42,302 bases of DNA from an uncultured Coriobacteriaceae bacterium. Its GTDB lineage: Bacteria; Actinomycetota; Coriobacteriia; Coriobacteriales; Eggerthellaceae. Every line of letters starts with the position of its first letter. Position 1 is the first letter of the stretch. The notes beneath the pieces were generated by a model. The model was not told the origin of the DNA, did no database searches, and saw only the letters and a program-made list of their open reading frames with translations. The DNA lies in contig CACZAR010000021.1 in assembly GCA_902779135.1 (NCBI GenBank), positions 1 to 42,302 of the forward strand, given 5' to 3'. A program made the translations under genes and the position numbers. Of the stretch, positions 3 to 28,911 are shown one piece after another.

Positions 3-1409
3 GGCGAAGCGGGCGTGTTCTCGGTTTGCGGCGTGACCTATGAGCTCGAAAACGAAATCGGGCCTGCTCCTGCGGGCGTCGAGCTCGTGTTGTTGCCGTT
101 TGATGATGTCATCGTCTACGACGGCTTCCTGCAGGCGTACGACCTTGGAGGGAATCAGCCCGACCGCGAGCTGCGTCGTATCCAGGATGAGTTTGAGCGT
201 CGATGCGCTGATGGCATTGCCACGACATCGCGTGAATTCATCGAGCGGGCACAGGCGTTTCTCGAAGCACAACGTGAACTCGAATTCGAGAGCTTGCTCG
301 CCGGACCCGTCGAAAGCGCTTCGTCTGAGGCAGGTGAGGCACTGCCAAAGGGCTTCCATCGCGGAGTGCTTGCCGGGTTGAGCGGGCTTGAACGCGATTT
401 GGCGATTGACGAATACCGCGCCAAACACCCCGAAGCGTTTGTAAGACCCGGTCAGGCAGACGTTGACGGGATGAATTTCGATGACGCACTACCGAACGAA
501 CTCGTGTCGTATGCCGACGAGATGCCTCAAGGCCTTCCGCCTGAATACCGCACGGCGCTCACCTGCATCGATGCGGCGACTATGCAGTATGGCATTGCAT
601 CGGTCGCGGATGTGTTCGCCCAGTACCGCGCCCTTTGTGCCGAGCCTCTTTCCTATGAGGCGTTTCAAACGCTGGTAGCTTCCGAGACTTGGCGTACGGG
701 TGCTGGCTTGTTCGATGTGTGGACGTATTCGGGTGTCGATTACATCACCCACTACTCGCTGAGCCCCGATTACGTAGCCCAGGAATTCATGCAGAGCAAG
801 GCTGGGTCGTCTGGCTTGTTCGTCAACCGCGAAACAGGCGAGATTGGCGGTTCGCCTCTCGGTGGCCTGTCGGGCAGTGGCGGGGGCGATCTCGTGATTG
901 AACTCGGTCGTCTCGAGCAGTACAAGCGCGACCTGGTCGAGATGCGCAAGCGCGAGCTTCCCATGAAGCCGCTCTCGCGCCGCGTGCTCGAGCAAGACAT
1001 CGTGAGCGGGTTGCTGTCGGATCCGAGTGCACTGGCGTTGCGCGATTTCCTCGACGAACGCGTGCCCGACGGCGAGGACGACTACACGTTTGCTGACCAT
1101 GTGGTCGAAGACGTCATCCGTTCGTCTCTTGAGCTGGGAAGTCTTGAAGAGGTCTTCGCGTTTGCGGTAGATTTTGGCCTCGAGCATTGCTGTGCCGACG
1201 AGAAGCGCTTAGCCCAGTTGCTGACCAATGTCTACAACGCGGTGCCCTCGTGGGAGAACAACGGTTGGTCGCCTCAGGAGCTCTACGAGCAGATGACCGG
1301 CCGCAAGATGTTCTACAACGCTGATGGCACCATCATGCGCATTGGCGCTGACGAGCCTTGCCCGTGTGGCAGCGGCAAGAAGTACCGCGATTGCTGCGGG
1401 CAGTCATAA
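3..1409 (+). CDS. SEC-C motif protein, 5' end outside the window
   Basis: The frame is open to the left edge, so the true start probably lies upstream; a GTG at 15 is the first visible candidate and would give 464 residues. The only recognisable element is the extreme C-terminus, CPCGSGKKYRDCC, a SEC-C zinc-binding motif of the kind at the end of SecA and of many uncharacterised proteins, where it coordinates zinc through Cys-x-Cys and Cys-Cys/His pairs. The rest is acidic, largely helical in character, with no signal peptide or membrane segment, so it is probably cytosolic. I do not recognise the N-terminal 440 residues and assign no function. A palindrome-rich gap follows it. Confidence 0.75.
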   Translation, partial: GEAGVFSVCGVTYELENEIGPAPAGVELVLLPFDDVIVYDGFLQAYDLGGNQPDRELRRIQDEFERRCADGIATTSREFIERAQAFLEAQRELEFESLLAGPVESASSEAGEALPKGFHRGVLAGLSGLERDLAIDEYRAKHPEAFVRPGQADVDGMNFDDALPNELVSYADEMPQGLPPEYRTALTCIDAATMQYGIASVADVFAQYRALCAEPLSYEAFQTLVASETWRTGAGLFDVWTYSGVDYITHYSLSPDYVAQEFMQSKAGSSGLFVNRETGEIGGSPLGGLSGSGGGDLVIELGRLEQYKRDLVEMRKRELPMKPLSRRVLEQDIVSGLLSDPSALALRDFLDERVPDGEDDYTFADHVVEDVIRSSLELGSLEEVFAFAVDFGLEHCCADEKRLAQLLTNVYNAVPSWENNGWSPQELYEQMTGRKMFYNADGTIMRIGADEPCPCGSGKKYRDCCGQS

Positions 1410-1431
1410 GCTGCGTCGGGGGGTTGCCAAA

Positions 1432-1528
1432 GGCGCATAAAACAACCAGGTTGAATTATGCATTGATAAAGCTGGTGTGAGTGCAAAAAGTCATGAATGC
1501 ATAATTCAACCTGGTTGTTTTATGCGCC
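1432..1528. repeat. BIME-like inverted pair of palindromic units
   Basis: Two 33-base arms (1432-1464 and 1496-1528) are perfect reverse complements separated by 31 bases. Each arm contains its own 27-base imperfect palindrome: GCATAA, two bases, CAACC, one base, GGTTG, two bases, TTATGC (1435-1461 and 1499-1525). The structure is thus two hairpin-forming units in opposite orientation, as in bacterial interspersed mosaic elements. It could also act as a strong terminator for the upstream gene, although there is no T-run. No other copy is apparent in this window. Confidence 0.8.
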
Positions 1529-1532
1529 CATC

Positions 1533-1558
1533 TGAACGCCGAACCCGTCCCCTGTTCA
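1533..1558 (-). repeat. Orphan REP copy matching the RAYT repeats at 41 kb
   Basis: Read on the minus strand this begins TGAACAGGGGACGGGTT and ends in GTTCA. It differs at one of 26 positions from the REP at 41091-41116 next to the transposase, so it is a solitary dispersed copy of the same family, about 40 kb away. It sits directly beside the BIME-like doublet. Confidence 0.85.
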
Positions 1559-1587
1559 TTTCCGCCCCCCGCTCATGTGTGCTATAC

Positions 1588-1620
1588 AATGAGACACCGT
1601 ACTTGGTACGGTGTCTCATT
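1588..1620. repeat. 33-base perfect palindrome in the 5' leader of the phosphatase gene
   Basis: Arms of 15 bases (1588-1602 and 1606-1620) are perfect reverse complements around a TTG loop. The core is GAGACACCGTAC-TTG-GTACGGTGTCTC. It ends one base before the GGGAGG ribosome binding site at 1622-1627 and follows a TATACA -10-like hexamer at 1583-1588, so in RNA it would form a hairpin abutting the ribosome binding site. It could be a dispersed palindromic repeat, an operator, or a translational control element. A palindrome of the same design is at 36444-36472. Confidence 0.75.
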
Positions 1621-1633
1621 TGGGAGGGTTGAT

Positions 1634-2095
1634 ATGGCCAAGGACCGTATTCGCATATTGTTCGTCTGCCACGGCAACATCTGCCGTTCCACAATGGCCC
1701 AATGCGTCATGCAGCATATGGTCGATTCCCGTGGGATAGGCGGTCGGTTCACCATCGACTCGGTTGCCACGACAAACGAAGAGATCGGCATGCCCATCTA
1801 CCCGCCTGCTCGCGAGAAGCTCAAGGCTGAAGGCGTGCCCATCGTACCGCACCGTGCACGTCGCATCCAGGCGGGTGAACAGGCAGGATGGGACTACATC
1901 ATCTGCATGGACGAGGAAAACATCCGCCATCTGCGTCGTATCCTCGGACCCGAGAACATGGGCAAGGTGCGCAAGCTACTGTCGTACGTCGGCGAGTCGG
2001 GCGATGTGGCCGACCCGTGGTACACCGGCAATTTCGACGCAACATACAACGATGTGGTCCGCGGCTGCGAAGCGTTGCTGGCAAGCGTGTGCTAG
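1634..2095 (+). CDS. Low-molecular-weight protein-tyrosine phosphatase
   Basis: This 153-residue cytosolic enzyme hydrolyses phosphotyrosine (arginine phosphatase activity is known for relatives). The signature P-loop CHGNICRS lies at residues 12-19, with nucleophilic Cys12 and phosphate-binding Arg18, and the general-acid motif DPWYTGNFD lies near residue 125. The length is normal for the family. The ATG at 1634 is chosen because GGGAGG precedes it at 1622-1627 and the phosphatase fold starts immediately; an in-frame start upstream would read through the leader palindrome. No tyrosine kinase or capsule gene is adjacent. Its last codons form one arm of the hairpin at 2087-2120. Confidence 0.93.
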   Translation: MAKDRIRILFVCHGNICRSTMAQCVMQHMVDSRGIGGRFTIDSVATTNEEIGMPIYPPAREKLKAEGVPIVPHRARRIQAGEQAGWDYIICMDEENIRHLRRILGPENMGKVRKLLSYVGESGDVADPWYTGNFDATYNDVVRGCEALLASVC

Positions 2096-2120
2096 AAAAG
2101 GCGGATCTTTCCTAGCACAC
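2087..2120. terminator. Hairpin between converging genes, probable bidirectional terminator
   Basis: A 14-base stem (2087-2100 with 2107-2120, one mismatch) with a GCGGAT loop overlaps the phosphatase stop codon and precedes the end of the convergent VWA gene. No clear T-run follows on either strand, so termination efficiency is uncertain. Confidence 0.5.
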
Positions 2121-2143
2121 ACAACGAACGATACGGATGGTCG

Positions 2144-2824
2144 CTAGCGCCTGCCGAAGATACCGTGTTTCTTGCCGCCACGTTTTGCGACATCTTTCTC
2201 GATCGAGGTCTTCCAACTGCCGGTTACGCTTGCCATGTCCGGTGCGCAACGCATCTCATACGTCGCGTCTGCGATGGCCTCGTAAGCCACTTGGTTTCCA
2301 ATGTCGTCTGCCAAGTAGGTGACGGAACGGTCGGCAGCAATGCCAATTTTCTCGGCTTCGCCGATAGCGTCGATGTTCGCGCCGAGGAACAGGAACTCCC
2401 AGCCATCTTCTTTCTTCTGCTCGATCATCTTCTTGACCCGGTCGTAGGAGTATTCGCGGCTCGCGTTTTCGTAGCCATCGGTGATGATGACGAAAATCGT
2501 CTTTTCGGGCCGGTATTCCTCGGGCAGATAGCCATGCACGCGCCCGATGTGCTTGATCGACCCTCCGACGGCATCGAGCAGCGCCGTGCAGCCGCGCACC
2601 CAGTAGTCCTTCGACGTCAGGTTTTTCACGTTGCCGATGGCGATACGGTCGTGCAGCACCTCGGTGAAATTGTCGAACAGCACCGTCGATACGACGGCAT
2701 CACCTTTGGTTTCGCGGTGCTTTTGCAGCGTTGCATTGAAGCCGCCGATCGTGTCGGACTCTAGTCCGCCCATGGAACCGCTGCGGTCAAGGATGAATAC
2801 GAGCTCGGTCAAATCTTTCTTCAT
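2144..2824 (-). CDS. von Willebrand factor A (VWA) domain protein
   Basis: The 226-residue protein is essentially one VWA domain. The metal-ion-dependent adhesion motif is near the N-terminus (LDRSGSMGG, the D-x-S-x-S pattern), and the later acidic position is in ITDGYEN around residue 120. There is no signal peptide or membrane segment, so it should act in the cytosol as a metal-dependent protein-binding module. The start is the ATG at 2824, preceded on the minus strand by AAAGGACCT; a longer reading to 2905 lacks a better site. It is transcribed divergently from the macro-domain gene, sharing a 176-base region with two dyads, which suggests a functional link with the TIR/macro/RyR block. 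The specific partner is unknown. Confidence 0.85.
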   Translation of the reverse strand: MKKDLTELVFILDRSGSMGGLESDTIGGFNATLQKHRETKGDAVVSTVLFDNFTEVLHDRIAIGNVKNLTSKDYWVRGCTALLDAVGGSIKHIGRVHGYLPEEYRPEKTIFVIITDGYENASREYSYDRVKKMIEQKKEDGWEFLFLGANIDAIGEAEKIGIAADRSVTYLADDIGNQVAYEAIADATYEMRCAPDMASVTGSWKTSIEKDVAKRGGKKHGIFGRR

Positions 2825-2900
2825 GATAGGTCCTTTCTCTTCGCGGGGCGGTTGCCCCCCTCTTGCGATTAGGACTCTACGCTGCATGCGCATTTGATTG

Positions 2901-2944
2901 GTCAACTGCGAGTTGACATCTCCTAACCAAGTTAGGGCTATCTT
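2901..2944 (+). promoter_or_regulatory. Promoter with long spacer holding a dyad, upstream of the macro-domain gene
   Basis: TTGACA at 2913-2918 and TATCTT at 2939-2944 are 20 bases apart, longer than the usual 17. The spacer contains a perfect dyad, CCTAAC-CAA-GTTAGG (2922-2936). A second dyad, GTCAAC-5-GTTGAC (2901-2917), overlaps the -35. A dyad inside an over-long spacer is typical of promoters controlled by MerR-family activators, though no MerR gene is present here; the helix-turn-helix of the downstream protein is another candidate binder. This is inference from spacing and symmetry. Confidence 0.5.
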
Positions 2945-3000
2945 TTCTTGGTAAGCCGTCGTAGTTCATAATGGAAATAGCTGGACGTGAGGAGCGAAGC

Positions 3001-4332
3001 ATGCCGTTTTCGATAGAGCGCAACGATCTTGCCCACATGGACGTCGATGCCGTAGTGGTGGCGGCAAATGAAGAGCTGCAAATCACGGGTGGAGTTGGGG
3101 CCGACGTGGCCAACGCAGCTGGGTTTGCCCTCGTGCAACGTGCGTGTGATGAAATCGGATTCTGCCCGACGGGCTCTGCCGTTGCGACGCCCGGGTTCGA
3201 TTTGCATGCCACGACAATCGTTCATGCTGTCGGGCCGATTTGGCAGGGTGGCGATGAGGGCGAAAGCGAGGTTTTGCGTGCAACGTATGCAAGCGCACTG
3301 CGTTGCTGCAAAGATGCGAATGCCCAATCGTTGGCGATGCCTCTCATCTCGGCGGGAACATACGGCTTCCCTTCGGAGGTCTCGTTCAGAATCGCCATGG
3401 AAGAGATCCGGACGTTTCTCGAGGAAAACGACATCGATATCCGCCTGGTGTTGTTCAACCGCTCAGCAGTAAAGGCGGCGGTTTCATCGTACGGTGAAAT
3501 TGCCGAATACATCGACGATCACTACGTCGACGAACGGGCAACCGAACGCTATGAGCGCTATCTCGAAGTGGAGGCGGCTGGCGGTGGTTTCCGTGACGGC
3601 TACATGCAGCAACGTCCTTACGAGGAGTTCGACCTTTGGGGAACTGAAACTTCTCAAAGCGAGTTCGACTACGAGCCGTTGGCCATGCCCGATTCGGCAA
3701 GCGTGCCGATGCCGACGCCTGACTCGCCAGATGCTCCTGCGGCAAGGTCGTACGGTGCACCAAGCGCGCCCGCACGAATGCCACTTGAAACGGGGACTGC
3801 TCATCGTCGTCCCGCAAAACCTTCAGGCCCTCTGTCGCGGATAGGCGAGTTCATCGATGAACTTCGCGAGCGCAAACGCGAAGAGAAATCATCCGATGAT
3901 GCGTCAGCGACAATGCAGATGGCGCCAATCGAGGCATTCGAGAAGCAAGAAACGTCCATCGGCTCGGCGTCCAGTTTGGGAGATTGGCTCGATGCGCTCG
4001 ATGCGCCCTTTTCGACTACGCTGCTCGCGCTTATCGATGCGCGCGATATGACCGACGCAGAGGTTTACAAACGCGCGAACATGAGTCGCCAGCTGTTCAG
4101 CAAGATTCGCAGCGATGCAAACTATCGTCCGACGAAGAGGACTGTGCTCGCGCTCGCCATTGCCCTGGAACTCGACCTCGACGAGACGGCTGATCTGTTG
4201 CGACGTGCCGGCTTCGCTCTATCGAACAGCAGCAAGGCCGACGTCATCGTCGAGTATTTCATCGCCCATGGCAATCACGACATCTTCGAGATAAACAAGG
4301 CGCTGTACGCGTTCGATCAGCAAACGATTTAA
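3001..4332 (+). CDS. Macro domain protein with C-terminal helix-turn-helix-like region
   Basis: Residues 1-175 form a macro domain, a binder or hydrolase of ADP-ribose and its derivatives: VVVAANEELQITGGVGADV is the ligand-binding loop, and PLISAGTYGFP is the second conserved loop. Residues about 195-320 are a variable acidic/proline linker. The last 120 residues look like an XRE/Cro-type helix-turn-helix (a stretch containing MTDAEVYKRANMSRQLFSKI followed by LALAIALELDLDETADLL). A DNA-binding macro protein could sense ADP-ribose and regulate transcription. The ATG at 3001 is chosen because GAGGAG stands six bases before it; an ATG at 2971 has no such site. The TIR gene follows 107 bases downstream on the same strand. 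The helix-turn-helix call is less certain than the macro call. Confidence 0.88.
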   Translation: MPFSIERNDLAHMDVDAVVVAANEELQITGGVGADVANAAGFALVQRACDEIGFCPTGSAVATPGFDLHATTIVHAVGPIWQGGDEGESEVLRATYASALRCCKDANAQSLAMPLISAGTYGFPSEVSFRIAMEEIRTFLEENDIDIRLVLFNRSAVKAAVSSYGEIAEYIDDHYVDERATERYERYLEVEAAGGGFRDGYMQQRPYEEFDLWGTETSQSEFDYEPLAMPDSASVPMPTPDSPDAPAARSYGAPSAPARMPLETGTAHRRPAKPSGPLSRIGEFIDELRERKREEKSSDDASATMQMAPIEAFEKQETSIGSASSLGDWLDALDAPFSTTLLALIDARDMTDAEVYKRANMSRQLFSKIRSDANYRPTKRTVLALAIALELDLDETADLLRRAGFALSNSSKADVIVEYFIAHGNHDIFEINKALYAFDQQTI

Positions 4333-4407: not shown

Positions 4408-4413
4408 TATAAT
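4408..4413 (+). promoter_or_regulatory. Possible -10 box before the TIR gene
   Basis: TATAAT stands 26 bases before the TIR start codon, in the 107-base gap after the macro gene. No good -35 hexamer lies 16-18 bases upstream, so this is a tentative internal promoter. Read-through from the macro gene is equally possible. Confidence 0.35.
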
Positions 4414-4439: not shown

Positions 4440-6467
4440 ATGGGCAAAGACGTCTTCATCAGCTACAAGTCGGAAGAGTTCGATTCTGCGAATATGGTTC
4501 GCGGTGTGCTCGAGCGAAATGGCATCACTTGCTGGATGGCGCCAGCCGACATTCCTTCGGGTTCCAATTACGCTGTCGAGGTGCCCAATGCAATCAGGGC
4601 GGCGAAAGTCGTCGTGTTCATCCTCTCCGAACAGTCGCAGAAATCAGAGTGGACCCAAAAAGAACTCGACATCGCCCTCAACGCCAAGAAACCCATCATG
4701 CCGTTTGCGCTCGAGGAATGCGACCTCATCTCGCCGTTCGATTTCTACTTGGGCAACGTGCAGCGCAACGATGTGTTCCAAGACGTATCGTCTGGTCTCG
4801 AAAAGCTCGTTCGCGACATCAAGGCGCTCACCGGCTCTGATGCGCAATCCGTCGACATCCCCGAAGATACGCTGCAAGCACTGCGAGCGGGGTTTACCAA
4901 GCAGAAAACCAAAAAGCTCCTTCCCCTCATCATCGCGTGCGCAGCTGTGGTGGTTGCGGCCATCGCAGCGTTCATGCTGTTTTCGGGCGGTGGCAACAAT
5001 GCTTCGACCAGCACGACGGTCAGTGCGAGTGCCACATCTGCCCAGCGCGTGGCTGCTGAAGTGTACGCATCGCAAATCGGCTCTTACATGGATGCGGGCA
5101 CTGTCAATTCGTACGAGAACATCTCGGCGTCCAGCAGCGATACCCTCAAGGTGAACAAAGCCTTCTCGATTCTCAGCTTCGTGCGCAACCAGGGCGATGC
5201 CGCTGCCCAAGTTGAGTCGGTGTCCATGGAAATCTCAAGCCTCGAGCCCATTGAGGACGTCATCATACAAGCTGACGCGACGGTGGCAAACGGGGACATG
5301 CTTCTCGTGTACGCCGTCAACAACGGCTGGGGTACATCGAAGGATACTGAAATCGAAGTTTTCGCGACGAGCTCAAACTCAGCCAAACGCATCGAGCTGA
5401 GCGACTTTGCAACAAACGTCGAGCTTGATGAAGCGCGCGATTTCGAGCCGGGAGACGTTGCGCGACCTGTGAAAGCAATCGTCGATATCGACAAGTTCAA
5501 GGCTGTGGCCCATCAGAAAAAATCGGAATACGATCTCGATTTGCACGTCGTCAACAAGGAGACGGGCGACGAGATCAGGTCGTTTAGCCTGCAGTGGAAC
5601 GAGCGCGAAGGCCTGCATGTCTTCTACGGCGGCGTTGGAGATGCGGGTTACAGTGTCACACTGTTTGCCGTGCTCGATGTTGACGCCAACCCGACGAGCA
5701 TCCGCTTCAGCGGCGAGCAAGCCAATCCGCGTGTTGAAGACACGTTCCGCATCGAAACGGTCGTTGCACCCACCAAATCGTGCAACGTCGTATGCAAGGA
5801 CGTTTATTCAGTGAACGGAGAGCTGCAGGAAACCCCCGAATACTCTGTGATGGTCACCGTGCCCGTCTTCTTCGATGGCGCATTCGGCAATCAATACAAT
5901 CTGACGGCGGACCTTGCGGCCGACCCCGATATGGGCGATCTGCAAATGCAGCGTGTGGCCGACAAGTATCGCTACGACCCCCAGAGCATTTTCGACAACA
6001 GGCAGAACAAAGACTCTGGTTCCAGTACTGCAAATGCAGGAGGCTCTACAAGCACCTCCACGTCTGCAGACACAGCGGCCACTGCTAAGGCTGCTTCTTC
6101 GGAAACCAAAGCAGCAAGCACCTCTGAGCCGAAGATGAGCGCCGAGGAATATGCGGAAAAGTATCCGGGAGTAAAGGCATCGACCCCTGAAGGGTTTTCG
6201 ATGAGAATGGAGCCGTTCTGGGGCGTATGGGCAACGGCGTCAAAAGACATGGATGAAGCACGCAGTTTCGTTGAATCAGCACGCTCAGAAGCTTTCGAGG
6301 CGCAAGCGTTCATCTCTTCCGACTGGGAGAACCTGAATCCCGAGACGTGGTACGTGGTCTCGCTCGGTTGCTCTGACACGGAAGAAGAAGCAAATGCAAT
6401 TTTGACACGTGCACGCAAATGGGGTTACGAAGACGCCTATGTGAAATACTCGGGCAAACGCCTTTAA
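4440..6467 (+). CDS. TIR domain - transmembrane - SPOR-like domain protein
   Basis: The 675-residue protein starts directly with a TIR domain (residues 3-130): KDVFISYKSEE is box 1, and SEWTQKELDIAL carries Glu75 at the position of the catalytic glutamate of TIR NAD hydrolases. One strong membrane segment follows (about 160-182), then a Ser/Thr-rich stretch, a beta-rich domain (about 200-520), a low-complexity Ser/Thr/Ala linker, and a C-terminal segment (about 590-672) with the repeated alpha/beta pattern of SPOR peptidoglycan-binding domains. The predicted topology puts TIR in the cytosol and SPOR outside. AAAGGGG precedes the ATG. The next gene follows after 31 bases, so the two are very likely co-transcribed. 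NADase activity is inferred from the conserved Glu, and the SPOR assignment is by pattern only. Confidence 0.87.
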   Translation: MGKDVFISYKSEEFDSANMVRGVLERNGITCWMAPADIPSGSNYAVEVPNAIRAAKVVVFILSEQSQKSEWTQKELDIALNAKKPIMPFALEECDLISPFDFYLGNVQRNDVFQDVSSGLEKLVRDIKALTGSDAQSVDIPEDTLQALRAGFTKQKTKKLLPLIIACAAVVVAAIAAFMLFSGGGNNASTSTTVSASATSAQRVAAEVYASQIGSYMDAGTVNSYENISASSSDTLKVNKAFSILSFVRNQGDAAAQVESVSMEISSLEPIEDVIIQADATVANGDMLLVYAVNNGWGTSKDTEIEVFATSSNSAKRIELSDFATNVELDEARDFEPGDVARPVKAIVDIDKFKAVAHQKKSEYDLDLHVVNKETGDEIRSFSLQWNEREGLHVFYGGVGDAGYSVTLFAVLDVDANPTSIRFSGEQANPRVEDTFRIETVVAPTKSCNVVCKDVYSVNGELQETPEYSVMVTVPVFFDGAFGNQYNLTADLAADPDMGDLQMQRVADKYRYDPQSIFDNRQNKDSGSSTANAGGSTSTSTSADTAATAKAASSETKAASTSEPKMSAEEYAEKYPGVKASTPEGFSMRMEPFWGVWATASKDMDEARSFVESARSEAFEAQAFISSDWENLNPETWYVVSLGCSDTEEEANAILTRARKWGYEDAYVKYSGKRL

Positions 6468-6498: not shown

Positions 6499-8655
6499 AT
6501 GTCCCAGAGTCACCAGATCATCATCGTTACTGGCTGGCTGCTCTCGATTGTCGCGCTCGTGGTGACCATCGCCGTGGTCATGCGAATAATCAAAAAGCGC
6601 GAGAAGACCGAGTCAACGGTGCCGGTGTGGATCGTGTACGCGATAGACATCTTCGTCACGGCATTCATTCTCGTCCTCAGCCAGAACATCGTCGATCTGG
6701 GTGGTACTCCGGATGCACCCAATATACTGGATTCGCTGCTGAGCAGCCTTCAGATGTTCGTGCTCGGTCGCGGAATCGATTTGAACATCGAAATGCTCGA
6801 GTGGATGGGCCCGCTGCTTCTGGTTTACGCGGTCTACAACGCGGCTTTGTTCCTTGCGGTTCCTGCGGCGACAGCCGGCACCGTCATATCCCTGATTGGG
6901 CAGATGCTCAGCGTGCCGCGCATGCTCAGCCTTGCCCGAAAGCGTGGCGTGCATGTGTTCTCCGAGCTCAACGAGAAATCATTGACGCTCGCGAAAAGCG
7001 TCTACGAAGACGAGGGCGCCGCAGAACATCTTGTCGTGTTTGCAAATGTCAGGGACGACGATGTTGCGCTGGCATCGGATGCGAAAAGCGCAGGCATGGT
7101 GTGTCTGGCCCAGTCGGTTTCATTCATTGCGAGCAGGATAGGCAGCAGGTCGTTCAAACGCACGTATGTGTTTTCATCCGATGACGAGGTCTCCAATTTG
7201 GGGAATGGCATCACGCTTGCGCGCCAGCTGGTCGAGCAGCACGTGGTAGGCGATCCAACGCCTTACGTGTTCATGTTCTCGAGCTCGCCGGTGGCCGGCG
7301 CCGTCGTCGATGCGGTGTCGAGTGAGGTGAACGCATCGCTTGGCGAGAATGCAGATGCGTCCGATATCAAGGTGCGCTTGAAGCGCGTCGACTGGATTCG
7401 CAACACGGTCGATATGCTGCTCGATACCTATCCGCTGTTTGCGACAGGACTCGAAGAGGGTTGCATGGACGGCCTGGAATTCGAGCCGAAGCTCACGTTC
7501 GATTACGAGCCTTCGAAGCGCCACATATTGATCGTCGGCGAGAGCATGTTTGCGGTCGAGTACTTGAAGGGCGTGCTTTGGGCGGGGCAGTTCGGCGACG
7601 AAATCGAAGTGCAAATCGACGTTGTCACGCCTGGTGTCGAAACGCTGAAGAGGCGCTTCGCTTTCGAAAGCCCCGAATTCTTCGCGACGGATGGGCGGCC
7701 ATACCAAGATCGATACAACCTGCGGTTCTATTCCTTCGACCCGCAAGGCGACGACTACCTGAACTATTTACTCGAGAGCGGAAGCGAATTCGGCGAGATC
7801 GACCAGGTGCTCGTGGCAATCGATGACGACCTCGTCTGCGCCAAGGTGGCGCGCCGCACGCGTGAGATTCTCGAGCAACGCAGGCTCGGCCGTCCTGGCA
7901 TGAAGCCAGCGTTCATCGCTGCGCTCATCGAGGATTCCGAGCTCGCACAAGCGGTTCGACTCATGAAAGCGCGAAAGCGCCTGTACGCAATCGAACCGGT
8001 GGGCAACGTCGAGTCGGCTTATACCGTCGAGAACGTGTTCAATACGCCGCTTTCGCGGCAGGCGCGCAACGTGAACCGTATCTACAGCGAGCACGATATC
8101 AATGCCGCGGACAATTTCGAAGCAGCCATTCTCAAAGCCGACTTGGGTTTCATGGGATCGGAATACAGCCAACGTTCATCGCTCGCTTCGGCGTTGCATC
8201 GAAAGTACTCGCTGTTCCTCGTATGCCGCAAGACCGCATCGGCGGCAGGGGCAGCCGTCGATTGGACGACTCCGCTCGTGTCCATCAACCAGGTGGTCAA
8301 AGACGAGTACGAGGCGTATTTCAAGGAGCATGATGCAGCGTGGCTGTCTGCGGTTGAGCACGATCGCTGGAGCGCTTATGTGAGCACCGAGGGCCACGAG
8401 CATGCAGACTTGGATCAGGTGAAACAAATCTGGGCACTCGAAGAGAAGCATAATTACGAACTGGCCCACCTGCATCCCTGCTTGATCGATTTCGACGATT
8501 TGCCTTCGCTCGACAACGAGGTCGAAGCAGTAAAAGGCGCATCGCCGCAGTTCCAGAAGATCGACGACAACGTGATCCGCGCCATCGGCGTTATCGCCGC
8601 CGACAAGAACACGTTCGAAGCTGAGTGGAAGCGTTTCTTCGGCTCGAAAGGCTAA
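6499..8655 (+). CDS. Membrane protein with TrkA/RCK-like regions and C-terminal RyR-like domain
   Basis: The 718-residue protein has three hydrophobic segments at the N-terminus (about 7-28, 43-65, 103-135), with a compact layout resembling a small channel. Two Rossmann-like cytosolic regions follow (about 145-240; about 335-450, starting HILIVGESMFAVEYL), similar to TrkA-N/RCK regulatory domains. The C-terminal hundred residues contain VEHDRWSAY and, further on, HLHPCLIDFDDLP. This matches the spacing of the prokaryotic RyR domain (E-H-x-R-W ... H-P-x-L). Such TrkA-RyR proteins are proposed to gate ions or bind nucleotide ligands. GGAGG at 6489-6493 precedes the ATG. Tight linkage to the TIR gene suggests that it senses or responds to TIR products. 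Domain boundaries and function are inferred. Confidence 0.72.
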   Translation: MSQSHQIIIVTGWLLSIVALVVTIAVVMRIIKKREKTESTVPVWIVYAIDIFVTAFILVLSQNIVDLGGTPDAPNILDSLLSSLQMFVLGRGIDLNIEMLEWMGPLLLVYAVYNAALFLAVPAATAGTVISLIGQMLSVPRMLSLARKRGVHVFSELNEKSLTLAKSVYEDEGAAEHLVVFANVRDDDVALASDAKSAGMVCLAQSVSFIASRIGSRSFKRTYVFSSDDEVSNLGNGITLARQLVEQHVVGDPTPYVFMFSSSPVAGAVVDAVSSEVNASLGENADASDIKVRLKRVDWIRNTVDMLLDTYPLFATGLEEGCMDGLEFEPKLTFDYEPSKRHILIVGESMFAVEYLKGVLWAGQFGDEIEVQIDVVTPGVETLKRRFAFESPEFFATDGRPYQDRYNLRFYSFDPQGDDYLNYLLESGSEFGEIDQVLVAIDDDLVCAKVARRTREILEQRRLGRPGMKPAFIAALIEDSELAQAVRLMKARKRLYAIEPVGNVESAYTVENVFNTPLSRQARNVNRIYSEHDINAADNFEAAILKADLGFMGSEYSQRSSLASALHRKYSLFLVCRKTASAAGAAVDWTTPLVSINQVVKDEYEAYFKEHDAAWLSAVEHDRWSAYVSTEGHEHADLDQVKQIWALEEKHNYELAHLHPCLIDFDDLPSLDNEVEAVKGASPQFQKIDDNVIRAIGVIAADKNTFEAEWKRFFGSKG

Positions 8656-8831: not shown

Positions 8832-8892
8832 CGTTCCTTGACAGCCGAATAGCGAAGCAGGTTTGAAGTTCTCCAAAGAGATGGAGGTTCTT

Positions 8893-10323
8893 ATGAACAA
8901 CAAGGTGAATGATGGATGGACGCGCGGATTAGGCAACCTCAGCTTGGGCATCACGGTAGGGATGTGCGCAGATGACCTGAGTAGCGTGTTCCAGTTCAAT
9001 GAGGACCGGTTTCGGCACATGCTTGTCATCGGGCGCACCGGCAGCGGCAAATCGAATCACATCCTGCAAATGGAGCGCGAGGACATCCTCAGCGGAGCAG
9101 GCGTGGCCATCATCGCTGCGCATGAGGAAGATGCAATCTACCCGCTGACGTTTGTCCCTGAGGAGCGCATGGACGACGTGGTGCTTATCGACGCTTCGAA
9201 CAAGCACTATCTGCCGCGCATGAACCCGCTCGACGTCGATAGAAGCGACAAAGCTGCTGTAGACAAGGCAATCGATGATGTGGTCGAGCTGCTGAAAACG
9301 GGGGAGTACTATCAGTGGTCAGGCCCGCGTATGTACGATTTCGTACGCAATGGCCTGAAGCTCATCCTGCATTCGAAATTTCCCGACGACCCGAGCTTGC
9401 TGCTGCTCTCGAAGCTCTACGCCGATCCCGATTACGTCAGAAACTGTCTCATGAGCGTGGATGACGAACGCCTGAACAGACAATGGCGCATCGAAGCCTC
9501 AGCGCACCGCTCGGGCGATCACGATGATTCGATCCAATGGTTCCTCTCGAAAATCGATCGTATCGCCGAAAACGAAACGTTGAGGCATGTGTTTGGACCG
9601 GGAAAATCGACCATCGACATCCAGCAGATCGTCAACGAGGGGAAGATTCTCGTTGCAGCGATTCCCGAGGCGCGCATTGGGCGCGATGTGGCTCAACTGC
9701 TGTCGTCATGGCTGGTGGCGCGCTTGCACGATGCAATCTTGAACCGCGGTTGCTCGGCTAGCGAGACTCGTGTGGGGAGGCGGGATCGTTTCGAATCGAG
9801 CGATCTCGGCATCTTCGGCGAGACGGCCAATGACCTTGACATACTCGAGCCGTTTTTCGTCTACATCGATGAGTTTGCGAAATTTGCGAGCCCCAATTTC
9901 GAAGGTCTGTTCGCCGAGGCGCGCAAATATCGCGTGGGTTTCGTGCTATCGCTGCAAACGCTCTCTCAAGTTCGCATTCTCGATCGCGCAAGCGGGCTCG
10001 AGTCAAATCTCGCGCAAGCGATACTCGGCAACGTTGGGTCAATCATCTGCTACCAGGTGGGACTTGCTGACTCTTCGTACATTGCCGAGCAATTTGGCAT
10101 CGATGCGGAAAAGGTTAGAAGAATTGAGCGCTATCGGCCGCTTGCGCGGCTGTGTTTCGACAATCAACCGTCCCAGCCGCTAACGCTGATAGTTGGTCCC
10201 AAGCCTGAACCTGATCGTCCGAACGTGCCGAAGCGCATTGCGCGTCGCCACATCGGTCGGCGCATCTGGCTTCCGACCGAATACGAGCGTTCGTTGCGAG
10301 GAGTGGTGAAGTGTGCAGCTTGA
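8893..10323 (+). CDS. HerA/VirD4-like P-loop ATPase
   Basis: This 476-residue cytosolic ATPase belongs to the HerA/FtsK superfamily, closest in feel to type IV coupling proteins (TraG/VirD4) and helicase HerA. Walker A is GRTGSGKSN near residue 48, Walker B is FFVYIDEFAKFA near residue 328, and a sensor-like segment VLSLQTLSQV follows near residue 360. There are no N-terminal membrane segments, unlike conjugative VirD4, and no relaxase or secretion genes are nearby, so a role in DNA or protein translocation within the preceding TIR/RyR system is more likely than conjugation. GGAGG at 8883-8887 stands five bases before the ATG at 8893. Starts at 8863 (TTG) and 8881 (ATG) are possible, but the GGAGG lies inside or after them. 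Confidence 0.82.
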   Translation: MNNKVNDGWTRGLGNLSLGITVGMCADDLSSVFQFNEDRFRHMLVIGRTGSGKSNHILQMEREDILSGAGVAIIAAHEEDAIYPLTFVPEERMDDVVLIDASNKHYLPRMNPLDVDRSDKAAVDKAIDDVVELLKTGEYYQWSGPRMYDFVRNGLKLILHSKFPDDPSLLLLSKLYADPDYVRNCLMSVDDERLNRQWRIEASAHRSGDHDDSIQWFLSKIDRIAENETLRHVFGPGKSTIDIQQIVNEGKILVAAIPEARIGRDVAQLLSSWLVARLHDAILNRGCSASETRVGRRDRFESSDLGIFGETANDLDILEPFFVYIDEFAKFASPNFEGLFAEARKYRVGFVLSLQTLSQVRILDRASGLESNLAQAILGNVGSIICYQVGLADSSYIAEQFGIDAEKVRRIERYRPLARLCFDNQPSQPLTLIVGPKPEPDRPNVPKRIARRHIGRRIWLPTEYERSLRGVVKCAA

Positions 10324-19626: not shown

Positions 19627-22413
19627 CTATTTCAAAACGGCTGCAAGCTCTTCGACCAGCACGGCAACGTCGATGGGCTTGGCGATGTGCGCTTGCATTC
19701 CAGCGTCTTTCGCCGCTTGCACATCCTCCTGGAAGGCGTTGGCGGTCATCGCAAGGATGGGGGTGGATGCAAGCGCCTTGTCGTCGAGAGCTCGTATCGC
19801 TCTGGTAGCCTCGTAGCCGTTCATGACAGGCATCTGGACATCCATCAGAATTGCATCGTAGTACCCAGGCTCTGACTGGGAAACCATATCAACGGCTACT
19901 TGCCCGTTCTCCGCTTCCTCCACCATGAAGCCTTGTTGATCCAATATCATCTTCGCGATTTCCATGTTGATGGCGTTGTCCTCAACGAGCAGCAAACGCT
20001 TCTCCGAGAAGTTGATTTCCGAATCGGCATCGGATGCAAGCACGTCTTTCGCTTTGGGCACGTCGTCTTCTTGTGCGATTTTGAGTTTGAGGCCGATAAT
20101 GATTTTCGTTCCGCCGCCGGGCGACGTCAGCACTTCAATGGTGCCGCCCATCAGGTCGACGAGGCTCTTCGTGATGGCTAGTCCCAGGCCGGTACCCTCT
20201 ATGCCGCTGTCCGTCGAGGTGCGTTCGCGTTCGAAAGCCGTGAACATCTTGTCGACGAACTCCCTTGACATGCCGATGCCCGTATCTTCGACGCTCATTT
20301 CATAGGAACCATATCCCTCAATCGCGGCGCCGGTTTGCCACAACGTGATCGACACCGACCCGCCTTCGGGCGTGAACTTGTAGGCGTTGCTCACGAGGTT
20401 CAGCAGGACACGGTTCAAATTCCGCTTATCGCACCAGACGAGGTTGTCGGTCATCTGCGAGGTGTGGACCGAGAACTCAAGGTTCTTCTGCCGCATTTGC
20501 TCGGTGAACAAGTCGCCAATCTCGTCGATGATTGCACGAAGATCGGCGGGCTCGTAATGCCGCTCGACCTTGCCGCTCTCAATTCGGCTCATCTCCAGGA
20601 TGTCGTTGATGAGGGCGAGCAGCTGGCCGCTCGACATGTCTATCTTGTCCAGATACTCCTGCACGGCCTCCACAGAGCCCGCATTGCGTGCTAAGTTCGT
20701 GTATCCAATGATGGCGTTCATGGGTGTGCGGATGTCGTGTGACATATTGAACAGGAATTGGCTCTTCGCCAGGCTTCCCTCCATGGCGCGAATCCTCTCG
20801 CGTTCCGCCACCTCGTGCTTCTCTTGCATTACGCGTTGGATGTAGAGCATGATTACCAACCCGAAGAAAATGATGAGCAAGAGCACGACGCCGCCACCTA
20901 CAAGCGCTGCGCGCACATCGTCCATGTTGTCCATTCTGGCAATGAGCTTCGCCAACCACATGAACGCGGAATAAATCAACAGCGCAAACAGGACAGTTCC
21001 GGAAATGGACATGCCGCTGAATTCCGTGAGCGTGCTGCGGACAATCGTGCGCCAATAGAACACGAAGCCCAGCAGGCACCAAAGGGACAGCAAGAGGAAT
21101 GCTTCGCTTCCCATGGCATCCAGCGCAGCGAGGTGCGGAACCAGCTGGACGATCACGAAGACGACTGCAATGATGGTGCCGAGCAATCCGACGGCCATGA
21201 TCTTGCGGTTTCCTTCCGATCTTGCAATGCGGTGCGCGGCTGCGCACGTGTATCCGTAAGCGACGATGGCGCCGAAAGAGGTGAGGTCCACGAACCACAC
21301 GAGCGTGTTGCGGCCGAGCAGCGAGATCACGACGGAAAGCGCCATGACGAACAGGATGCTGATGGTCGTCTTCGAGAACATGTCCGCCAAGATCTTGTCC
21401 TCGGCCATCGTGGACAAAACGCGCACCATGGCTCGGTACGCCCCGATAATGCCCGTGAGGATAGCCGCCAGCGCTGTGACACCTATGATAACCAGGCCCG
21501 CATCTCCCAAATTGGCTTTTGCGGCATAGAACGTCGGCACCGATTCCGCACCGCTCAAATTGCCCAGATTCGCAATGTAGGCTGTCCAAGAGGAGTACCC
21601 GTCGGGCTGTGTGGTTACGCTGACGAGCGCCATGGCTATGTAGACGAATGCTGCGATGAGAATGGATGCGACGATAATCCGTCCCACCTTCGCGACAGGG
21701 AATTTGAAATGAGACGTCTCGAACGTGACGATTTCAAAACCGACGAAGGCCCATGGCGCAAGGATGATCAGGCTGAATATTGCGAAGCCATTGTTGACGC
21801 CTTGAGTGCCGAACGAGCAAACCACGTCCATTGACGGGGCATGCTGCAAGCAGATGACCGTTGTCGCGACAGCGCCCACGAGCAATATGATGGCAAGAAC
21901 GGTAAGAAGGCGCTGCAGGAAAGGCTTTGCAAAGATGAACAGCATGCCGACGGCGATCAGGGCGAGGACTGACATCCCGATTTCCTGGAGATAGACCTCG
22001 TTGCCTGCAATCATGTAATGGAGTCCGGTTTGGATGTTGCTGCCGAATATGGTGCGGATGACTACGAACAGGGCGCTGCCGTTCAAGAACACGACCGTCA
22101 GGTAGGAAAGGCTCAGGAACCATGCGCAAAGGAATGCATGGTCGCGCCCGAAGGCTTCTTTTGCATAGGAATACATACCGCCCGTTCGGGGGCTGCGCTT
22201 CATCAGATAGGAGACGCTCATTCCAACGATCAGCATGACTACCGCGCCAATCGCAATGGCGATTACGGTGCCCATTGGCCCTGCGATGGGGAGGAACGTG
22301 GTTCCGGGCATGACGAAGGCGCCCCAGCCGATCATGCATCCGAAAGCCATCGCCCATACGTCAATTGGCGAAAGGTATCTATCAAAGCCTTGCGGCATGG
22401 TTTCCTTGCTCAT
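19627..22413 (-). CDS. APC-type amino-acid permease fused to hybrid histidine kinase
   Basis: The 928-residue protein starts with a complete APC-superfamily permease (about 1-475, roughly 12 membrane segments; GCMIGWGAFVMPGT is the helix-1 substrate-binding motif). Two more hydrophobic segments and a coiled coil lead into HisKA (FNMSHDIRTPMNAIIGY, phospho-acceptor His near 567), HATPase (NRVLLNLVSNAYKFTPEGG; DTGIGMS; GTGLGLAI) and a receiver (ILMDVQMPVMNG carries the acceptor Asp). It probably couples amino-acid or amine transport or binding to signalling, as the solute-symporter kinases of the CbrA type do. Two starts are possible: ATG at 22413, or ATG at 22398 with AAGGA upstream. It is the last gene of the five-gene signalling operon, 47 bases after the previous one. 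Confidence 0.93.
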   Translation of the reverse strand: MSKETMPQGFDRYLSPIDVWAMAFGCMIGWGAFVMPGTTFLPIAGPMGTVIAIAIGAVVMLIVGMSVSYLMKRSPRTGGMYSYAKEAFGRDHAFLCAWFLSLSYLTVVFLNGSALFVVIRTIFGSNIQTGLHYMIAGNEVYLQEIGMSVLALIAVGMLFIFAKPFLQRLLTVLAIILLVGAVATTVICLQHAPSMDVVCSFGTQGVNNGFAIFSLIILAPWAFVGFEIVTFETSHFKFPVAKVGRIIVASILIAAFVYIAMALVSVTTQPDGYSSWTAYIANLGNLSGAESVPTFYAAKANLGDAGLVIIGVTALAAILTGIIGAYRAMVRVLSTMAEDKILADMFSKTTISILFVMALSVVISLLGRNTLVWFVDLTSFGAIVAYGYTCAAAHRIARSEGNRKIMAVGLLGTIIAVVFVIVQLVPHLAALDAMGSEAFLLLSLWCLLGFVFYWRTIVRSTLTEFSGMSISGTVLFALLIYSAFMWLAKLIARMDNMDDVRAALVGGGVVLLLIIFFGLVIMLYIQRVMQEKHEVAERERIRAMEGSLAKSQFLFNMSHDIRTPMNAIIGYTNLARNAGSVEAVQEYLDKIDMSSGQLLALINDILEMSRIESGKVERHYEPADLRAIIDEIGDLFTEQMRQKNLEFSVHTSQMTDNLVWCDKRNLNRVLLNLVSNAYKFTPEGGSVSITLWQTGAAIEGYGSYEMSVEDTGIGMSREFVDKMFTAFERERTSTDSGIEGTGLGLAITKSLVDLMGGTIEVLTSPGGGTKIIIGLKLKIAQEDDVPKAKDVLASDADSEINFSEKRLLLVEDNAINMEIAKMILDQQGFMVEEAENGQVAVDMVSQSEPGYYDAILMDVQMPVMNGYEATRAIRALDDKALASTPILAMTANAFQEDVQAAKDAGMQAHIAKPIDVAVLVEELAAVLK

Positions 22414-22460
22414 CGTGCTTCACTATCTCATCGGTGCGTGCGTTCCCAAAACCGTTTCAT

Positions 22461-25400
22461 CTATGGCTTAATCAGGCTCTCAAGCGTTTCGAAGAGGGCT
22501 TCTGGTTCGACCGGCTTCGACAGATGCGCATTCAGGCCTGCTTGCAAGCTTCGCTGCACGTCCTCGTCGAAAGCGTTCGCCGTCAACGCGATGATAGGAA
22601 TCTGCTTCGCGTCCTCGTGGTCAGAAGCGCGGATGACCCTTGTGGCCTCCAGGCCGTCCATCTCGGGCATGCGCATGTCCATGAGGATTGCATCGTAATA
22701 TCCGCTTGGGTGCTCGGTAAACATATCCACAGCGATGCGGCCGTTCTCTGCCAGGTCGACATTCATTTCACGCATTGCCAGCACCATAGCCATGATCTCG
22801 GCGTTCACCGGCATGTCTTCGGCCAGGAGCACGCGGCGTCCCTTGAGGTCGGCGCGGACGGGCGCCATTGCCTCGCCCTTCTTCTTGAAGGCCGTCTTGA
22901 ACTCGTCGAGCACGCTGCCCGCGAACAAAGGCTTGGCAACGAAGGTGTCCACGCCAGCATTGATTGCCTCGTCTGCCACCTCGTCCCAGTTGTAGGAGGT
23001 CAAGATGATGATGGGGGCGTCATTGCCGACGATCGATCGGATTTGCCTCGTCGTCTCGATGCCGTCCATGTCCGGCATCTTCCAGTCAACGAGCAGCAGA
23101 TTGTAGTCTGCTCTCCTGGCATGACGGACCTTCACCATCTCTATAGCCTCTGCGCCTGAGGAGGCGACCTCGCAGGTGATGCCGACCTGCTTCAAGATGA
23201 TCTGCGCATGCTCCAGCGCGATTGGATCGTCATCGATTGCGAGGACGCTGAGCATCCGGGGGTTCAGGTTCTCCTCGAAAGCATCGCTGCTCTTCCGATC
23301 CGATTCCTCCAGCGTCACTGTCACGTAGAACGTCGTGCCGACGCCCTTCGTGCTTTCCACCTCGATATGGCCGTTCATCAGTTCGACGATGCTCTTCGTG
23401 ATGGGCAGGCCCAGGCCGGTGCTTCCGTACTTGCTGGTAGTGGAGGCATCTTCCTGGCTGAACGCCTCAAAGATGTGGGGAAGATACTCTTCGCTCATGC
23501 CGATGCCGGTGTCCTTGATGGTGAGCTTCAGCGTGCACTTGCGGTCGTAGCGCCTGCCCTCCTCGATGAGGAACGTCACCGTGCCGCCTTCCGGCGTGAA
23601 TTTGACGGCGTTGCCCAAAATGTTGATCATGACCTGCTTGAGCTTCATGCTGTCACCGACGTAGTAGTCGTCGATGGTGCCGATCGTGCGGCAGTCGTAC
23701 GTAATTCCCTTGTCGGTGCACTGACCGCTGATGATGGTGTTGACCTGCTTGAGATCGTTGGCGAACGAGAACTCATCGTTCTTGATGATCATCTTCCCCG
23801 ATTCGATGCGAGACATGTCGAGGATGTCATTGATGATGCCGAGCAAGTGCTGTGCCGAGGCGCCGATCTTCAACAGGTATTCTTCGACAGCGTCGGGAAC
23901 ATCAGGCTCGTTGAGGGCAATGTTGTTCAAGCCGATGATGGCGTTCATGGGCGTGCGAATCTCGTGGCTCATGTTGGAGAGGAAAGCCGTTTTGGCCTTG
24001 CTGGCCTGCTCTGCTGCTGTGAGTGCGTCTGATAGCGCCTGCTGTTGCTCGAGTCCCGCGCGCGTTTCGGCATCAACGTCGGCGAAGCACGCCCCGACAT
24101 TGTGGACGATTCCGTCGTCTCGGTCTTCGGGGTGGCGGACTCCAGCAAAGCGCACGGCCTCGTAGGACTCCTTGCCGTTGACGTTGATCATGTAGCGATA
24201 CGAGATGACGTCATTGTCCTTGAGCCCCTCGCGTATGGAATCGGGCTGAATGAAGTTCAGGAACTCTTCGCGGTACTGCTCCAAGATGTAATGGTTGCAG
24301 TATTCGGTCACGGCTTCGAGGTAGTCGAACTCTTCGCCAACTTCAAGCCCAGGCAAGTCTTTGCGTGCCTGGTAGCATACGCCCTTATTGCGGTCGAGCT
24401 CAAGGTAGTAGACGCTTCGATAATCGGAGGACAAGGCCGTGATCATCTTGCTCTGCTGCTCTTGCTCGGTCTTTTGGGCCAACAGCTGGTCCTGCAACGC
24501 AATCTTCTCTTCCATCTCCTGGCGCTTGATGCGGTTCTCGGTTTCGGCGGTCTCCTGCTCGAGCGCGAGCCGAGCGTTCTTGCGCATCTGGGATGCGATG
24601 AAGAGGAACATCGCGGCGAGGACGATGACTGTCAGAATGGTTTGGATCAAGCTCCGTTGGATAATCCCGTCCGACACCGAGCCGATGCGCTCGCTGATAA
24701 CGTCGTCTCTAATCAGGTAGGTGAGGAACCAGTTGGTTCCCTCGATGGGAGCGTAACTCAGGGTCTCGGTCACGCCGTCGTACGTGAAGGTGGCAATGCC
24801 CCTGTTGCCTTCGGCGAAATCGCGCAAAAGCTGGTCATAAGAGTATCCAGAGTCGAATTCGGCGTGTGCTAGTGCATCCAGAAGATTGTCTTCCGCTGCA
24901 AGTCCGCCCAAAACGGTGTTGCTGAGGGCAATGCCGTCGTTCGTGTACATGTTGCAGAACGTGGCATCGGTGCTCTGCGAAGCCATCGAGACGCCTTGCA
25001 GCATGACGTCCATGTCGATTTCCATGGCGCAGGCAATGAGCTTGTTTCCATTGAGGGACAGGTTGAGGTCGCGAATAGGCACCGCAATAACGACTTTTTT
25101 ATCGGGGTCGTTCACGTTCCTGATGGTGATTCCCGGTTCGGAAAGCGCTTGATAGTCGAAGGCGAATTGGCTCGCATCGCTCAGAATGCCCTCATCGGCC
25201 GTGTACATCAGGTTGTTCTCGTCGATGAACGCAAATCGGTCCAGGTTGAAGAGCTGTTTCATATTGCGTTGGTACGAGCGCAGGTGGTCGAGATCGCTCA
25301 GGTCGTTCTCGTCGATCATCGTAACGGCGACGTTGATCACGTTGACGTTGTTCTTGAGGTTGTCTTCCACGACCTGTTCGCGGCGACCGGCAAGTTCGTC

Positions 25401-25553
25401 CAAGTACAACAAGCTGACCGAGCGGGCGGCTTGTTCCGTATCATGCCGAGCGCTTTGCCCCATCCAGACCGTGCCAAGCACCAGTATGATCAAGACAAGC
25501 GCGCCACCCACAATCGCTATCGGAGTTGTCAGGTTCCGTTTTTTGCTTTCCAT
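22461..25553 (-). CDS. Hybrid histidine kinase with extracellular sensor and two receivers
   Basis: The 1030 residues are arranged as follows: membrane segment 12-33; an extracytoplasmic domain of about 265 residues with double-Cache character; membrane segment about 305-325; coiled coil; PAS-like domain about 375-500; HisKA (LSNMSHEIRTPMNAIIGL); HATPase (MINILGNAVKFTPEGG, DTGIGMS, GSTGLGLPI); and two receivers with intact acceptor Asp (LLLVDWKMPDMDG and ILMDMRMPEMDG). The protein probably binds a small extracellular ligand. It has no HPt domain of its own, so the separate HPt protein at 28912 is a likely phosphate carrier. It lies 27 bases downstream of the BvgS-like gene and 47 upstream of the permease-kinase gene. 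Confidence 0.93.
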   Translation of the reverse strand: MESKKRNLTTPIAIVGGALVLIILVLGTVWMGQSARHDTEQAARSVSLLYLDELAGRREQVVEDNLKNNVNVINVAVTMIDENDLSDLDHLRSYQRNMKQLFNLDRFAFIDENNLMYTADEGILSDASQFAFDYQALSEPGITIRNVNDPDKKVVIAVPIRDLNLSLNGNKLIACAMEIDMDVMLQGVSMASQSTDATFCNMYTNDGIALSNTVLGGLAAEDNLLDALAHAEFDSGYSYDQLLRDFAEGNRGIATFTYDGVTETLSYAPIEGTNWFLTYLIRDDVISERIGSVSDGIIQRSLIQTILTVIVLAAMFLFIASQMRKNARLALEQETAETENRIKRQEMEEKIALQDQLLAQKTEQEQQSKMITALSSDYRSVYYLELDRNKGVCYQARKDLPGLEVGEEFDYLEAVTEYCNHYILEQYREEFLNFIQPDSIREGLKDNDVISYRYMINVNGKESYEAVRFAGVRHPEDRDDGIVHNVGACFADVDAETRAGLEQQQALSDALTAAEQASKAKTAFLSNMSHEIRTPMNAIIGLNNIALNEPDVPDAVEEYLLKIGASAQHLLGIINDILDMSRIESGKMIIKNDEFSFANDLKQVNTIISGQCTDKGITYDCRTIGTIDDYYVGDSMKLKQVMINILGNAVKFTPEGGTVTFLIEEGRRYDRKCTLKLTIKDTGIGMSEEYLPHIFEAFSQEDASTTSKYGSTGLGLPITKSIVELMNGHIEVESTKGVGTTFYVTVTLEESDRKSSDAFEENLNPRMLSVLAIDDDPIALEHAQIILKQVGITCEVASSGAEAIEMVKVRHARRADYNLLLVDWKMPDMDGIETTRQIRSIVGNDAPIIILTSYNWDEVADEAINAGVDTFVAKPLFAGSVLDEFKTAFKKKGEAMAPVRADLKGRRVLLAEDMPVNAEIMAMVLAMREMNVDLAENGRIAVDMFTEHPSGYYDAILMDMRMPEMDGLEATRVIRASDHEDAKQIPIIALTANAFDEDVQRSLQAGLNAHLSKPVEPEALFETLESLIKP

Positions 25554-25580
25554 ACGAGGCCTTTCGCCGCTTCTCGCCTT

Positions 25581-28853: not shown

Positions 28854-28911
28854 GGTGGGACCTCCTCTCATCATTGTCGGCCTGAACGGGATGAGGCTCG
28901 CTTGCTATCGG

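Follow-up and report, generated by a model that had tools for sequence, protein, structure and literature searches.

In a coriobacterium from the rumen, a gene product is predicted to place a TIR domain, with a Glu at the catalytic position, inside the cell and, beyond one transmembrane (TM) helix, an outer end modeled as a SPOR fold. The adjacent gene is predicted to encode a TM-Rossmann-RyR protein (table 1). The two products may constitute a membrane-spanning TIR receptor working with an RyR-domain membrane protein, that is, a two-protein membrane relay resembling Thoeris, a reading to which a probability of about one half is given. The term "window" refers below to the whole analyzed stretch of DNA (42,302 nucleotides).

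The Gene and Its Domain Layout

The 675-codon frame at 4440–6467 of the plus strand is intact and has a Shine-Dalgarno-like sequence (AAAGGGG). It shares 95% identity with its orthologue (L017) in G010, a rumen genome of the same genus (CACZIP010000007, uncultured Coriobacteriaceae RUG12647); of the codon differences between the two, 137 are synonymous and 36 nonsynonymous. Because of this identity and the predominance of synonymous differences, the frame is a real gene. Within residues 1–130, one out of 35 codon differences is nonsynonymous. The sequence TATAATC.CTTTAG is kept at the orthologue, even though the DNA further upstream is there occupied by a transposase gene. A full-length orthologue was found in one of the 14 other genomes of the genus.

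Table 1. Features of the TIR-SPOR Gene and Its Partner (Positions in the Window)
Feature	Residues	Position	Strand	Basis
Probable −10 element (TATAAT) immediately 5′ of the TIR gene		4408–4413	+	Read in sequence
TIR-TM-ectodomain-SPOR protein, 675 aa		4440–6467	+	Sequence, Pfam, hydropathy, orthologue
TIR domain, W71xxxE75	5–123	4452–4808	+	Pfam TIR_2, E 1.2e-21
Single TM helix, N-in by the positive-inside rule	163–181	4926–4982	+	Kyte-Doolittle, flanks
Predicted extracellular region	205–537	5052–6050	+	No Pfam match; AF2 strand-rich, pLDDT 37
Ser/Thr/Ala-rich linker	538–584	6051–6191	+	Sequence, composition
SPOR domain	593–671	6216–6452	+	Pfam, profile-PDB matches, AlphaFold model
Partner gene, 718 aa, with three predicted TM segments, a Rossmann-like region, and a putative RyR domain at the C-terminus		6499–8655	+	
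RyR (R12-type) domain of the partner, H621xxW624 and H659	607–693	8317–8577	+	PDB matches; alignment with 30 other RyR domains

The N-terminal TIR domain, proposed in an earlier note made from the sequence, is confirmed by a full-domain match to PF13676 (77.9 bits against a cut-off of 28). Glu75 occupies the position of the catalytic Glu in a WxxxE-type context; it is invariant in seven TIRs and aligns with its counterpart in PdTIR, Cat1, and TIR-STING. Weak matches to the ThsB_TIR (E 1.8e-4) and ThsB profiles were also obtained.

The same note had placed a single membrane helix at about residues 160–182, and a strongly hydrophobic segment is indeed found there, with a mean Kyte-Doolittle value of 2.96 over its 19 residues; a shuffled control attains 1.75 in 8% of trials. 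The N-terminal flank is Lys-rich (KQKTKK) and the C-terminal one reads GGGNNASTSTT, so an N-in, C-out orientation is predicted, with the TIR domain inside the cell and the remainder of the protein outside. The ectodomain of approximately 310 residues gave no match in the Pfam search. The "large beta-rich region" claimed for it is weakly supported by a strand-rich AF2 model of residues 201–537, as the pLDDT of this model, predicted from two input sequences only, is as low as 37.

The SPOR Domain

The C-terminal segment, which the earlier note called SPOR-like, lies close to the Pfam threshold: PF05036 matches residues 594–668 with 20.5 bits in the protein search (cut-off 21) and with 24.4 bits in the whole-genome search. 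Residues 581–675 were modeled by AlphaFold (pLDDT 72) as an RNP-like β-α-β-β-α-β fold, with strands at 593–601, 622–626, 637–645, and 667–671 and helices at 604–616 and 648–660. The top Foldseek match of the model was CwlC (1x60, E 8.9e-4). In VIA-align comparisons, CwlC aligned over 79 residues (Z 10.3, 2.8 Å) and the RlpA SPOR domain with denuded glycan over 76 (Z 8.6, 2.5 Å), and the SPOR structures of DedD, DamX, and FtsN were among the further structural matches. A profile of eight members of the clade retrieved CwlC (2.1e-7), DamX, and FtsN from the PDB; de novo TIM barrels also matched this profile but were discarded, their score coming from a short repeated motif only. By the model, the C-terminus belongs to the SPOR fold.

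The clade is characterized by the motif PFWGVW...DWxNLNxExWYVV...DAYVKYSG. In RlpA, Q270 (SPOR profile position 8) contacts the glycan, and Gln is preferred, without being universal, at this position across SPOR domains (PMC6895207). In the Pfam match, where residue 594 corresponds to profile position 5, the canonical Gln is replaced by Trp597; the position holds Trp in seven and Phe in one of the eight aligned clade members. Residues 620–646, in the β2–β3 region, contain neither Arg nor Lys. The Lys of β4 (YVKYSG) is kept in six of the eight members. Because of the Trp at the canonical Gln position, the binding of denuded glycan is regarded as putative, and the Trp together with the absence of a basic β2–β3 patch from the sequence suggests that the ligand may differ.

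Distribution of the SPOR Cassette

The last 85 residues are common to six Coriobacteriales proteins with other N-termini, five of which score 27–42 bits against PF05036 (cut-off 21) and one (L022) 17 bits. Proteins of several kinds in the family carry a SPOR domain of this clade behind a TM helix: zinc-ribbon proteins, a Ser/Thr kinase, and TIR proteins of two unrelated layouts, that of the window gene and its G010 orthologue and that of L025. The kinase (L096, G324:C91; Pkinase 5e-21, SPOR 1e-8) is a Ser/Thr kinase-TM-SPOR protein. PASTA repeats are the usual outer module of such receptor kinases, and the SPOR domain is located in their place.

The genus has a second, differently laid-out TIR-TM-SPOR protein. 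This protein (L025; region 204–4042 of G011:C105) has 991 aa, a TIR match of 1e-18, and a SPOR domain (3.5e-10) directly after the TM helix. Its gene overlaps by 4 bp a gene for an ADP-ribosylglycohydrolase (PF03747, 1.6e-60); no RyR gene was seen beside it on the 8-kb contig. Both TIR-TM-SPOR genes therefore adjoin a gene for a protein of an ADPR-handling type, the RyR gene in one case and the ADP-ribosylglycohydrolase in the other.

Among 297 genomes of the order, SPOR was found above the cut-off in 14 and TIR in 61, and in that sample the window gene alone had both in one frame. Outside the genus, no frame with both domains was found among 297 genomes from the order and 198 from the phylum. 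The analysis is based on metagenome-assembled genomes (MAGs), in which the examples of TIR-TM-SPOR proteins are few. The search of viral contigs gave no relatives, and the plasmid search gave one TIR match and nothing else. None of the papers searched had both "TIR domain" and "SPOR domain", and the combination appears to be unreported. The window's own genome also contains a TIR-TM-DUF5050 gene (L026, G000:C13, 31455–29873, minus strand), whose outer part is likely a beta-propeller.

The Partner Gene

The partner gene begins 31 bp past the TIR gene in the same direction, and the spacing is identical in G010. The glycine motif of its Rossmann-like region is VGESMF, with GLGKSG and GLGRTG in the relatives L039 and L065, respectively. 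PF02026 remains below its cut-off in the partner protein, which has no Pfam match, so the RyR assignment is made from profile and PDB matches: bacterial and animal RyR chains are matched with an E value of 0.0054 by the sequence alone and of 3.8e-7 with the family profile. In relative L039, the PF02026 score is 26.8 bits against a cut-off of 27.4. The HxxW motif is near invariant in 31 aligned RyR domains (Trp in 31, His in 29).

Phage RyR-domain proteins bind or cleave the TIR products 2′cADPR and 3′cADPR through His75, Trp78, His100, and Asp117 (PMC13232231, a 2026 preprint), a work which ties RyR domains to Thoeris signals. H621, W624, and H659 of the partner match the His, Trp, and second His of this phage protein, RyDEP, whereas the equivalent of D117 has no secure position because of insertions in the window's clade. 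The window's genome has two further RyR-domain matches: G000:C58:8–205 lies where a contig ends, and G000:C182:1846–2067, below the cut-off, lies in a 694-codon frame.

TIR-RyR Pairing across Genomes

The pairing of TIR and RyR genes recurs far above chance. In detail, in the 297 genomes of the Coriobacteriales a TIR gene lies less than 8 kb from 22 of the 36 RyR genes, against 0.39 expected and a maximum of 6 in 200,000 simulations; these counts include related genomes and are thus not fully independent. Outside the order, a hand count from the tables gives five out of 11 RyR matches with a TIR no more than 8 kb away. The pairs are mostly co-directional and close or overlapping, with some divergent or convergent ones. 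A TM helix follows the TIR domain in 23 of 27 RyR-linked TIRs versus nine of 25 unlinked ones (Fisher P = 5e-4, relatedness uncorrected), and most of the RyR-linked TIR-TM proteins have C-terminal regions other than SPOR, several of them beta-propeller-like.

The RyR partners are of kinase-like-RyR, AAA-RyR, and TM-Rossmann-RyR types. In L073, L076, and L079, weak protein-kinase-like matches (Pkinase, Kdo, PD-T4-6) are placed N-terminal to the RyR domain. At L049 (G283:C94, 5692–12940), a TM-Rossmann-RyR gene is situated between two TIR-TM genes, one divergent and the other overlapping by 23 bp. A comparative-genomics paper of 2015 reportedly touches on prokaryotic RyR domains, and an earlier mention of the TIR-RyR linkage is possible.

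Gene Neighborhood

Transposase and conjugation-type genes are among the neighbors. The product of the upstream gene at 2971–4332 joins a macro domain to an HTH domain of the Cro/C1 type; the gene was rejected as a member of the unit, since its syntenic position in G010 is occupied by the transposase gene and its relatives are common elsewhere in the order. In G010 the family has no tie to this TIR locus. Membership of the TraG/HerA-like gene at 8863–10323, present in six of 61 relatives and with no tie to RyR, is unsupported. Further downstream, three hybrid histidine kinases are encoded in tandem at 19627–28874; an amino-acid permease is fused to one of them and a solute-binding domain to another, and a REC-GGDEF-EAL protein is encoded beside them (29306–31510).

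Proposed Mechanism and Alternative Explanations

Given the SPOR fold modeled for the C-terminus and the membrane-helix properties of the hydrophobic segment, the natural reading is that the cytosolic TIR domain receives an input from the wall side. With the TIR domain predicted inside, the SPOR domain outside, and an RyR-type gene next to it, the state of the cell wall may drive an NAD-derived alarm signal. The domains, their order, the topology read from the sequence, and the gene pairing are given by sequence or model; the scheme that we infer from them comprises glycan binding, catalysis, the identity of the ligand, the output, and an anti-phage role. The SPOR domain would hold the protein on peptidoglycan freed of its stem peptides by amidases, as at division sites, under phage lysis or entry enzymes, or after wall damage. 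Gain or loss of this binding would be passed across the membrane as a change in how the TIR domains cluster, and clustered TIRs would cleave NAD+ into an ADP-ribose-type signal, for example, a cyclic isomer of ADPR. This signal would be bound by the partner's RyR domain, and the membrane and Rossmann parts of the partner would respond with ion flux or damage to the membrane; alternatively, the RyR domain would clear the signal. The biological role would most likely be an envelope-triggered defence against phage or stress, of Thoeris-like build but with an external sensor.

The earlier note had proposed that wall state sensed outside controls an NAD-cleaving TIR effector. This proposal is partly supported. 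The architecture on which it was based is upheld by the SPOR fold and the TM helix, and the wall-facing input is strengthened by the second TIR-TM-SPOR protein and the kinase-TM-SPOR protein; the binding of denuded glycan is putative, with Trp597 in place of Gln and no Arg or Lys in β2–β3. Where that proposal has a stand-alone effector, the genomic evidence favors a signal producer paired with an RyR-domain membrane protein.

The SPOR domain may merely localise the protein. As SPOR domains are often septal targeting modules (PMC6895207, PMC7822825), it could be a tag that parks the TIR-RyR module at the septum, with activation from the inside or through the ectodomain, which is large enough to be a sensor. 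The replacement of SPOR by other C-terminal regions in most RyR-linked TIR-TM proteins agrees with this. On the contrary, the presence of the cassette on a receptor-type kinase, which supports a receptor role, and on the L025 TIR protein, where no large domain separates it from the TM helix, fits an input function, and a role in localisation alone is considered rather unlikely. Improbable, and more so than the tag, is a TIR domain that kills by depleting NAD and is restrained by the wall, with the RyR protein separate or accessory, for instance, an immunity factor removing the ADPR product. Such an arrangement would be compatible with the Glu at the catalytic position, with the phage RyR protein that hydrolyses cADPR (PMC13232231), and with the coupling of L025 to an enzyme of an ADPR-removing type. 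However, a membrane-bound RyR protein with a large Rossmann-like region exceeds the needs of a clearing enzyme, and the kinase-like or AAA domains of other RyR partners are typical of readers or effectors.

Certain TIRs of bacteria and animals act as scaffolds and most SPOR proteins are cell-division proteins, which would suit a housekeeping protein of envelope stress or division signaling whose TIR is a scaffold and performs no NAD chemistry. The patchy distribution of the gene within its genus, the mobile-type neighbors, the conserved Glu, and the near absence of nonsynonymous differences in residues 1–130 make this very improbable.

Comparison with Known Systems

Like Thoeris (ThsB TIR plus ThsA), the locus combines a TIR protein with an adjacent protein bearing an ADPR-ligand-type domain. 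Here, however, the TIR protein is predicted to be transmembrane with a SPOR ectodomain, and the partner is of TM/Rossmann-like/RyR type instead of the SIR2-SLOG or TM-macro type of ThsA. No PADLOC system model fits the pair, and the partner has no ThsA match in Pfam or PADLOC. Judged by gene content, the pair is not Thoeris, as the conserved unit includes neither ThsA nor a macro or SLOG partner.

FtsN, DamX, DedD, RlpA, and CwlC similarly have a SPOR fold that follows a single TM helix and a long linker of low complexity, but differ in the cytosolic domain, which is here a TIR, and in the canonical Gln. PknB/Stk-type PASTA receptor kinases share the order of cytosolic signaling domain, one TM helix, and outer module of a wall-binding type, with TIR here standing for the kinase and SPOR for PASTA. 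Like the RyR R12 domains (PF02026) of phage RyDEP, the partner has the HxxW motif and the second His belonging to the ADPR-ligand pocket; in contrast, it is a host membrane protein encoded beside a TIR gene and has inserts around the pocket, whereas RyDEP is a phage counter-defence. Toll-like receptors are also single-pass, combining an inner TIR with an outer recognition module, a functional analogy only: here the TIR is N-terminal (the reverse order), the ectodomain has no LRR, and the closest TIRs are of NAD-cleaving types.

The recurrent TIR-RyR pairing offers a direct test of whether RyR domains of host bacteria receive TIR-made cyclic ADP-ribose, a question left open in PMC13232231. It is conceivable, if doubtful, that a coriobacterial counterpart of a cell-surface Toll receptor is at hand, in which exchangeable ectodomains (SPOR, propellers, and others) control the TIR domain and an ADP-ribose-type product gates the RyR membrane protein, for envelope surveillance against phage. 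The cADPR-RyR axis is one proposed for animal calcium signaling; if this reading is true, it would serve phage surveillance at the envelope. Most known TIR defences of bacteria detect intracellular cues, and a TIR protein with an outer input of a peptidoglycan-binding type would add the state of the envelope as a trigger.
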